Source: Planctomycetota bacterium
GTDB lineage: Bacteria; Planctomycetota; UBA1135; UBA2386
NCBI GenBank assembly: GCA_020425885.1
Contig: JAGQRA010000807.1
Location: 1 to 10,303 of the forward strand
Direction of reading: 5' to 3'
Length of the DNA stretch: 10,303 bases
Part shown: piece after piece, positions 6,551 to 10,303 of the stretch
How positions within the stretch are numbered: the stretch's first letter is position 1
Layout of the letters: every line of letters starts with the position of its first letter
Made by a program: the position numbers and the translations under genes
The notes under the pieces: generated by a model
Database searches by the model: none
What the model was told of the DNA's origin: nothing
The model's input: only the letters and a program-made list of their open reading frames with translations

Positions 6551-6659
6551 TGGGCAACAGGTCGCGACTCCCGCGACCGCAACCAAACAGGATCGAACGA
6601 TGAAGACGACCTTTCGCAGTCACCTCCTGGCGCTGACCGGCGCCCTGATGTTCTCGAAC
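6551..6659 (+). repeat. Leader/signal-peptide cassette, copy 1
   Basis: This stretch spans the 5'UTR, Shine-Dalgarno, start codon and signal-peptide codons of the gene at 6600. It aligns to 7142-7251 with one single-base gap in the UTR. Shared blocks include TGGGCA, GGTCGCG, ACAGGATCGAA with AGGA 7 bases before each ATG, and an identical 20-base block (6633-6652 and 7225-7244) at the same codon phase encoding LTGALM. The similarity ends soon after the signal peptides. Confidence 0.75.
6560..6578 (+). promoter_or_regulatory. 5'UTR stem-loop upstream of the small secreted protein gene
   Basis: A perfect 7-bp stem, GGTCGCG (6560-6566) with CGCGACC (6572-6578), closes a 5-base loop. It sits 10 bases before the AGGA Shine-Dalgarno (6589-6592) and 21 bases before the ATG. 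The related leader at 7142 can also fold a 5-base-loop hairpin at the same place from different bases (GCGGGT/ACCCCGC, 7148-7165, one bulged C). A role in mRNA stability or translation, or an operator inverted repeat, is inference. Confidence 0.4.
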
Positions 6660-7141: not shown

Positions 7142-7251
7142 TGGGCAGCGGGTCGCGAACCCCGCCCACCTCAACCTCACAGGATCGAATGATGATCACC
7201 CGTCTCGAAAGCCTCCTCTTCGTACTGACCGGCGCCCTGATGTTGTCGAAC
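7142..7251 (+). repeat. Leader/signal-peptide cassette, copy 2
   Basis: This is the second copy of the cassette at 6551-6659. AGGA at 7181-7184 is 7 bases from ATG 7192, exactly as in copy 1, and the signal-peptide core LTGALM is encoded by an identical 20-base block. The UTR holds a hairpin at the equivalent position. The remaining 177-base gap between the genes (7014-7191) shows nothing else I recognise. Confidence 0.75.
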
Positions 7252-8932: not shown

Positions 8933-9172
8933 AACCGGTATGTGGAGCCGGACCGGCACGCCGGCAGCGATGCGGCATGGCGGAGTGATCGAGTAGGTCG
9001 CCTGGGCCGATGTTCGTTTGGCGCTGCGCCCAGTGGCGACTGTGGGAAGGAGCAGAGAGGGGGCAACCTGGGCGCAACTCGGGGTCGTGATGAGGTAGAG
9101 TCCTGAGTGGCAGGTGCGCATCTCCGCAGGAGGTGGCGCCTGACGCGGGCAAGAAATGCGCGACGCCGAGCG

Positions 9173-9177
9173 AAGGA
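9173..9177 (+). promoter_or_regulatory. Ribosome binding site deciding the start of the repeat-bearing exported gene
   Basis: AAGGA at 9173-9177 lies 5 bases before ATG 9183 and supports that start. An in-frame ATG at 9156 lacks a well-spaced Shine-Dalgarno; the strong AGGAGGT at 9128-9134 is about 21 bases from it. The 9156 start would supply a positively charged n-region (MRDAERRITM), which the 9183 start lacks, so both remain possible. Confidence 0.6.
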
Positions 9178-9182
9178 TAACG

Positions 9183-10303
9183 ATGCTCAGCTCTCAGCTC
9201 TCAGCTCTCAGCTCTCAGCTCTCAGCTCTCAGCTCTCAGCTCTCAGCAGGCGTACTGCTGCTGACGTGCGCCGTCATCGGCGGAGGTAGTGGAGTTGCGT
9301 TGGCTCAGTCGCCGCCGATTCCGATCCCGCGGTACACCGGAATCACCACCGAGTTCACGACGCACGACGCGACGACCACGGTGTCGCATACGCCCCCCGC
9401 CCTGTTTGAAGCCTGGGCCGACGTGAAGACCACCGGTGGCCTCGTGCCGGGCTCGGGATGGACGTTCTGTGTCGGCACGATCGAGGTGTCGACGACGGAT
9501 CCGACCGACAATCCTACCTTCTCTGACAAGGCCGTCGTGCCGCCTCTAGGTGCGGCTCTATTCCAGATCCCTGGTACCGCGACCTTCGCTACCAAGCAGG
9601 TTGTCGTGCTCCAGGCTCGCGGCCCGGATCCGTCGGTAACCGGTCCCAACGCAGACCAGGACATCCGCTGGCAACGCCTGTTCTATGGCGACTCGGGGCT
9701 TTGGACCTCGACGACCATCGGACCGATCGGCCGCACCGCCACCAACGCGCGCGCCGTTTCGGTGTGGCCGGTCTGGAAGGAGGCTACTGGCGAACTGGAC
9801 CAGGTAGAGACCCGGATCGCGATCTGTGGTGAGACCTACGATTCGCGACTCCCCAACAACCAGTTCAACGGCACCGGCGGTTGGAACAAGTTCTACGGTC
9901 CGATCCAGTTCCAGGCGAACTACCCCAGGGGCCTGCCGAGCGGATTCATCGCCGTCTACCGCGGCAACGGCGACCTTCTTTGGTCGCACCAGTTCTTCTT
10001 CGAGGACGCGAGCATCCCTCCCGGTGGCCCGGAGGGAGCCTGCGCCATCACCGATGTCAGCATCCGCGTCGAGCAGGTCGGCGAGGTGAAGCGCGACGTG
10101 GTGACCTACTGCGGCATCTCGTCGTTCGGATTGCGACTCAACGAGACTACCGCACTGACGGCCTATCGCAGCTACGCGGCCCCGACCTCGGCCGTCACGG
10201 GCTACGTGCCCGGAGGCGGTGCGACCGACAACTCGAACAACGGTGCCATCCTCGACCAGTGGGACGGCATCGTCGGGCGCATCTCGAACCTCCACAGTGC
10301 CAA
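9183..10303 (+). CDS. Large exported protein of unknown function with repeat-encoded signal-peptide region; predicted phase-variable (partial)
   Basis: From ATG 9183 the frame stays open for 373 codons and leaves the window. The first 22 residues are Met then three LSSQLSA units, all encoded by the heptamer tract. The hydrophobic core AGVLLLTCAVIGGGSGVALA follows, with a probable signal peptidase cut before QSPPIPIP. The mature part is Thr/Gly/aromatic-rich and predicted beta. A module with RIAICGETYD (about 217-226), GFIAVYRGNGDLLWSHQFF (254-272) and ACAITDVSIRV...VVTYCGISS (about 286-313) recalls one blade of SBBP/PQQ-like beta-propellers, a weak match. Mature cysteines occur in at least four places. 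Codon use is less GC3-extreme than in the neighbours (CTA, CCT, GCT, GTT, CTT are frequent), which could reflect transfer or relaxed selection. It is separated from the DUF1080 gene by 286 bases and is probably an independent transcript. The present repeat number keeps it in frame. Confidence 0.85.
   Translation, partial: MLSSQLSALSSQLSALSSQLSAGVLLLTCAVIGGGSGVALAQSPPIPIPRYTGITTEFTTHDATTTVSHTPPALFEAWADVKTTGGLVPGSGWTFCVGTIEVSTTDPTDNPTFSDKAVVPPLGAALFQIPGTATFATKQVVVLQARGPDPSVTGPNADQDIRWQRLFYGDSGLWTSTTIGPIGRTATNARAVSVWPVWKEATGELDQVETRIAICGETYDSRLPNNQFNGTGGWNKFYGPIQFQANYPRGLPSGFIAVYRGNGDLLWSHQFFFEDASIPPGGPEGACAITDVSIRVEQVGEVKRDVVTYCGISSFGLRLNETTALTAYRSYAAPTSAVTGYVPGGGATDNSNNGAILDQWDGIVGRISNLHSA
9186..9247 (+). 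repeat. Heptanucleotide microsatellite (CTCAGCT)8 plus CTCAGC, inside a coding sequence
   Basis: There are eight exact copies of CTCAGCT from 9186 to 9241, then CTCAGC at 9242-9247, with no interruption over 62 bases. Three units make 21 bases, so the tract encodes the 7-residue LSSQLSA three times. The unit length is not a multiple of three: losing one unit brings TGA at 9262-9264 into frame, and gaining one brings TAG at 9287-9289 into frame. Both stops fall inside the signal-peptide coding region. Slipped-strand mispairing on such tracts is the established mechanism of phase variation in other bacteria. Confidence 0.97.

Follow-up and report, generated by a model that had tools for sequence, protein, structure and literature searches.

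In a planctomycete gene for a predicted exported protein, a perfect heptamer tract lies at the 5' end of the reading frame and, judged against its relatives, very probably acts as a slippage-driven translational phase switch. The gene starts near the end of the window, by which we mean the whole 10,303-nucleotide stretch of DNA analysed. Replication slippage would add or remove whole 7-bp units of the tract. As 7 cannot be divided evenly by 3, changes in unit number would shift the signal peptide and the protein behind it in or out of frame. At counts equal to the present one modulo 3 the exported protein would be produced, and other counts would lead to an early stop. The same design, built from different 4-, 7- or 8-bp units, is present in most members of the gene family. 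We read the tract as a genuine on/off switch because most relatives have a frame-shifting run at this position and the repeat number varies between near-identical copies.

Anatomy of the tract and its start region

The tract directly abuts an ATG and is a perfect period-7 run of 62 bp, or 8.86 copies of CTCAGCT (Table 1), confirming an initial sequence-only reading of eight copies plus 6 bases after the start codon. It is the best tandem repeat in the window, with a score of 124 against 39 for the runner-up. It encodes residues 2-22, reading LSSQLSA in the present frame, and is followed by a hydrophobic stretch and a predicted cleavage site (ALA before Q), both recognised by eye. Relatives share this layout of tract, hydrophobic stretch and AQ. 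The ATG beside the tract has a Shine-Dalgarno match, AGGA, at 5 nt spacing. An alternative in-frame ATG lies upstream, and the choice between the two leaves the frame consequences unchanged. TAGAGT occurs in the 200 nt 5' of the start in 11 of the 23 family members examined, at a distance of 71-94 nt, and is possibly a shared promoter element. An Rfam search gave no match at gathering score. Elsewhere in the window, the segments at 6600-6659 (MKTTFRSHLLALTGALMFSN) and 7192-7251 (MITRLESLLFVLTGALMLSN) look alike in translation by eye, which suggests a degraded duplication.

Table 1. Features around the window tract, and GGAA tracts of a second exported family.
Feature	Positions	Strand	Remarks
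TAGAGT element (in AGGTAGAGTC), promoter-like	9096..9101	+	87 nt 5' of ATG 9183; putative function
Alternative in-frame ATG, without Shine-Dalgarno match	9156..9158	+	start-codon scoring
GAAGGA, Shine-Dalgarno-like	9172..9177	+	ends 5 nt before ATG 9183
Start codon ATG	9183..9185	+	in most relatives a start codon closely precedes the tract and usually has a Shine-Dalgarno-like match
(CTCAGCT)8.86 perfect heptamer tract, proposed phase switch	9186..9247	+	repeat scan, frame test
Predicted signal peptide hydrophobic core and cleavage site (GVLLLTCAVIGGGSGVALA, cleavage before Q)	9249..9308	+	by eye
Exported protein (predicted), N-terminal part, cut by window end	9309..10303	+	relatives
GGAA tract	L197 3046-3067		second exported family
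GGAA tract	L198 3092-3118		second exported family
GGAA tract	L199 3301-3346		second exported family
GGAA tract	L202 1826-1867 (L202/L060)		second exported family

Scripted changes to the unit number reproduced the frame consequences predicted in the sequence-only reading. With one unit fewer or two more, translation meets a stop at original position 9262, and with one more or two fewer at original position 9287. The reading frame remains open in silico at -6, -3, 0, +3 and +6 units, in agreement with the earlier claim that only the present copy number modulo 3 gives the full protein. A tract one or two units off the present count ends translation in silico after 24-37 codons. As in a contingency locus, the tract is perfect, lies in 5' coding sequence, has a unit length that 3 does not divide, and shows three-state periodicity.

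A gene family found in one GTDB family of Planctomycetota

A first protein search returned 20 relatives with 36-45% identity to the window protein. Six of these are named, five from planctomycete metagenome-assembled genomes (MAGs) and one labelled Rhodoglobus sp. (P0017). A fuller search with alignment A2 gave at least 170 relatives among the best 7993 candidates scored, 120 of them listed. When a genome collection was scanned with the window protein alone no relative was found, and with alignment A1 13 loci were found. Family genes are present in 13/34 genomes of one GTDB family of Planctomycetota, that of genome G003. In the order of G001 they occur in 13/154 genomes, the same 13, and in a phylum-wide sample in 1/392, which is the centre genome G001 itself. 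G002 and G003, both MAGs like the others, have 6 matches each, some of them fragments, and the remaining genomes 1 to 3. Several genomes hold two to five tract-bearing copies and others one or none. Two loci, L011 and L012, are titled Candidatus Kuenenia stuttgartiensis, and their genome, G007, falls within the GTDB family of G003. G007 is probably a mislabelled MAG, and the Rhodoglobus sp. label of P0017 is probably wrong in the same way.

For a full-length relative, L010, modelling gives a beta-propeller, and the model aligns with propellers from residue 3 to residue 585. Searches of Pfam and PHROGs gave no match for the family protein, and NCBIfam, searched with four proteins, gave matches in one alone, far below cut-offs. 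By sequence, the family profile had no match in the PDB and L010 had one, at E 0.84. The match between the L010 model and the propeller domain of CylK, at 15% identity, is one of fold. This likeness to CylK or to WD40-type propellers points to no function.

Tract position and frame-shifting length are kept while the unit varies

For a tract census we took the 26 members whose 5' end could be read, the window gene included. A tract had to be perfect, with a length of 20 bp or more and no fewer than 2.8 copies, and the scan began 260 nt upstream of the domain start. By this measure 22/26 members carry a 5' perfect tandem tract. Among the first 13 loci, a perfect 5' run of 7- or 8-bp units, at least 2.86 copies long, is found in 11. 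The family uses 12 distinct units (nine heptamers, two octamers and one tetramer), none of which is CTCTT and none of which has a period divisible by 3. The gene bodies of the 26 members, 55,890 nt scanned in all, hold no tract of period 2-12. Four members lack a tract at threshold and are in frame by eye: L026, where a decayed stretch is visible by eye, L035, L046 and L051.

In 21 of the 22 cases the tract lies 3' of the start codon, within the coding frame. The exception is L047, where (GAACCAT)3.86 at 1262-1288 overlaps the start. The unit itself contains an ATG, and unit number at this locus would thus alter the count of start codons and not the frame.

We compared these tracts with a background of 116 stretches, 1.97 Mb in total, taken from the genomes of five relatives. 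Here 25 tracts pass the threshold and 22 of them have a period divisible by 3. A single tract of any period-7 unit passes, and no CTCAGCT tract does. The background holds 3 frame-shifting tracts, one of which, L060/L202, belongs to a second switch-like family described below. Family and background periods differ by Fisher's test at 1.9e-10 by tract, an optimistic figure given that the members are related, and at 2.5e-7 by distinct unit. Counts over members are in general not independent, because the members are homologous.

Further (CTCAGCT)n tracts, which the sequence-only reading had proposed to look for, were found in the relatives, at this gene family and not scattered. CTCAGCT x3 is present in 2/8 relatives' genomes, at one place each, and in both that place is a family gene. 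Searches of eight genomes (44 Mb) with three patterns that take in the most frequent units hit a family gene at every site. At the peptide level, a search for periods of 4, 5, 7, 8, 10 and 11 showed repeats in 13/136 proteins, in a set where many entries start 3' of the tract. Protein P0127 suggests a pentamer unit in the family. A role for the repeat peptide itself was set aside, as the units encode differing peptides (LSSQLSA, LRFSASPL, LTHS and RSSKLEA). Unit sequence thus varies whilst place and frame-shifting length are kept, and we rest the case for selected switching mainly on this.

Most scored alleles are OFF in the assemblies

States were scored from the start codon close 5' of the tract with the most plausible Shine-Dalgarno match, a choice that is a matter of judgement. 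The 22 tract members comprise 4 in frame, or ON (the window gene, L023, L034 and L039), 15 out of frame, or OFF, 2 ambiguous with two candidate starts each (L041 and L043) and 1 special case, L047. Most members have more than one candidate start within 45 nt, and the state agrees between candidates except at L023, L039, L041 and L043. L023 has a GTG that is in frame and an ATG that opens 2 codons. At L039 two ATGs are in frame and a third opens 2 codons.

The 4/19 alleles scored as ON fit an expectation of one third (p = 0.33), and with the window left out the fraction is 3/18 (p = 0.21). Removing L023 and L039 gives 2/17 (p = 0.07) and counting both as OFF gives 2/19 (p = 0.048), at which ON alleles are possibly too few against one third. 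The OFF alleles divide 7:8 over both wrong frames, with L027 assignable to either; it has two ATGs, both without a Shine-Dalgarno match.

An open frame of at least 793 aa without a stop is found at 11/15 OFF loci. Three OFF loci look broken, namely L030 with one internal TGA, L037 (353 aa) and L042 (188 aa), and at L022 the frame runs off the contig end. By eye, many database entries of the propeller family start 3' of the signal peptide. For OFF loci such as L037, L031 and L024, the matching entries P0011, P0022 and P0023 begin past it.

Near-identical loci differ in tract length

Four near-identical pairs of loci differ within the tract, three by whole units and one by 8 nt, and two of the pairs differ in state. 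All are pairs of relatives; the window locus, seen once, has no such partner among the sequences found. P0021 and L030 come from different assemblies and are identical at 56/57 residues upstream and 189/190 downstream of the tract, their match ending at residue 265 of the 351 in P0021. Their tracts measure 35 and 28 nt, one unit apart, and are ON and OFF, respectively. The 7-nt difference was deduced from the codon count, since P0021 is known as protein only. The paralogue pairs L041/L043 and L042/L194 are near-identical beside the tract and have a 12-nt gap, or 3 units, inside it. L042 and L194 part ways shortly 3' of the tract. At L194 (3231-3259, G002:C120), a CACT tract and a leader identical to L042 until shortly past the tract are followed by what appears to be a later part of the protein, and the locus is possibly an internal deletion or a recombinant. 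The fourth pair, L197/L198, consists of orthologues from the second family in two genomes. Their tracts differ by 8 nt, as much as two units would span, one of which carries a substitution, and their states differ. The two share 92.5% identity over 228 nt and have a further 2-nt indel upstream. Variation in unit number is thus present among the gene's relatives, where the sequence-only reading had proposed to look for it; the closest relative, P0108, is without its 5' end.

GGAA tracts in a second exported family

GGAA tracts of 5.5-11.5 copies were found at L197, L198, L199 and L202/L060, 7-10 nt 3' of an ATG and 5' of a hydrophobic leader. Three of these loci are OFF and one is ON. The proteins of L197, L199 and L202 are related, at 44% and 37% identity, and L198 aligns with L197 as DNA. 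L197 matches the galactose-oxidase-like early-set domain PF09118 at 3.5e-16 and L202 has weak Kelch matches, whilst a Pfam search with L199 gave no match. TAGAGT is also visible in an alignment 5' of L197 and L198.

Other frame-shifting tracts in the background are CCTTC x9.4 at L156 6069-6115 (the same as L201 3070-3116) and CTGCTGG x5.7 at L165 629-668. L195, L196, L200 and L201 carry tracts of tetramers or pentamers to which no exported gene clearly belongs.

Weighing the explanations

The contingency-switch reading first made from the window is strengthened by tracts at the same place in 22/26 members with varied sequence, by periods never divisible by 3, by the 15/19 scored alleles that are OFF and by tract differences between near-identical loci. 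The tract could instead be a neutral microsatellite, a by-product of slippage with no selected role that is tolerated by flexible signal-peptide n-regions. Such regions do tolerate varied sequence, and the tract is absent at L026, L035, L046 and L051. Neutral tolerance in coding DNA, however, predicts multiples of 3, as in 22/25 background tracts, whereas the family units give 0/12. Frame-shifting tracts number only 3 across the 1.97 Mb background, including the one in the second switch-like family, and we hold this explanation to be very unlikely. Nor do we give much weight to the idea that the OFF alleles are pseudogenes or assembly errors in a decaying family. OFF alleles outnumber ON, and L030, L037, L042 and L043 are truncated or broken, but the long open frames at 11/15 OFF loci argue against decay. 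The scored frames also fit one third ON, barring the possible shortage of ON alleles under other start choices. Decay is accordingly a highly improbable account of the family.

The tracts might also work as regulatory repeats in DNA or RNA, as binding sites near the start, a role proposed in the available text on the TAACTGA repeats of Beggiatoaceae (PMC4679880). The position at the start codon is common to both cases. Against this stand the 12 kinds of unit across relatives and the 21/22 tracts inside the coding frame, and regulatory repeats give no reason for avoiding multiples of 3; there is very little likelihood of such a role. Programmed ribosomal frameshifting or slippery translation could yield protein from OFF alleles, many of which keep an intact downstream frame. 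Yet OFF alleles occur in both wrong frames, which one programmed shift cannot serve, and the units vary in sequence and length and hence offer no common slippery site. Frameshifting of this kind is extremely unlikely. A translational phase switch remains our preferred reading, and for it we infer that slippage is the cause, that switching is reversible inside a single population and that the protein is exposed at the surface. A pressure that fluctuates, exerted for instance by phage, predators or neighbours, may lie behind it.

Relation to known systems

The closest counterpart we discuss is the opa family of Neisseria gonorrhoeae, described in the text available to us as about 11 genes in which CTCTT pentamers in the leader-peptide coding sequence set the frame (PMC3745409). 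Both are multigene families of exported proteins with the frame set by leader repeats in each copy. The opa unit is CTCTT, whereas the planctomycete units vary and are 4, 7 or 8 bp long, with CTCAGCT in the window. Opa proteins are outer-membrane barrels, in contrast to the propeller modelled for L010, and the planctomycete family is not a member of the opa family. We read the planctomycete system as a likely case of Opa-like slippage-driven phase variation in environmental bacteria.

Tetranucleotide repeats drive phase variation of surface structures in Haemophilus influenzae, according to the portion available of PMC2651432. The CACT and GGAA tracts of planctomycetes resemble these loci, but the genes and the phylum are different and planctomycete units are more often heptamers or octamers. 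TAACTGA heptamers of Beggiatoaceae, Cyanobacteria and Bacteroidetes are likewise repeated in tandem where genes begin, and again in environmental bacteria. They are reported, in the accessible part of PMC4679880, to lie mostly just 5' of start codons and to form 169 sets in one genome without a common function. That system has a single, mostly intergenic unit, whereas the planctomycete tracts have many units, inside the coding frame, in particular gene families. Few reports of repeats of 6-9 nt exist, according to the accessible sections of PMC4692102. The literature searched, whose scope left most subscription papers outside, held nothing on point about planctomycete phase variation, and the available text of PMC3711429 and PMC4060949 describes no planctomycete switch. 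A 2025 review expects, in the part available, that gaps in knowledge will be filled for bacteria from other settings, ocean and soil among them (PMC11868660).

Repeat-driven phase variation is known chiefly from host-associated pathogens, and the present data make a strong comparative case for it in a phylum whose members are environmental bacteria, most of them uncultured. The natural series of differing units at one position makes selection on the frame-shifting property testable. On the practical side, database entries for OFF alleles (P0011, P0022 and P0023) miss the signal peptide. Taken together, it is fairly likely that within one family of Planctomycetota a set of exported propeller proteins is maintained under independent slippage switches. 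The switch, and not its sequence, would be selected, with units of 4, 7, 8 and perhaps 5 bp repeatedly replacing one another and lengths divisible by 3 avoided. Two or more unrelated protein families would be switched in this way, giving combinatorial variation of exported proteins. The finding points to uncharacterised exported proteins that are seemingly worth switching.
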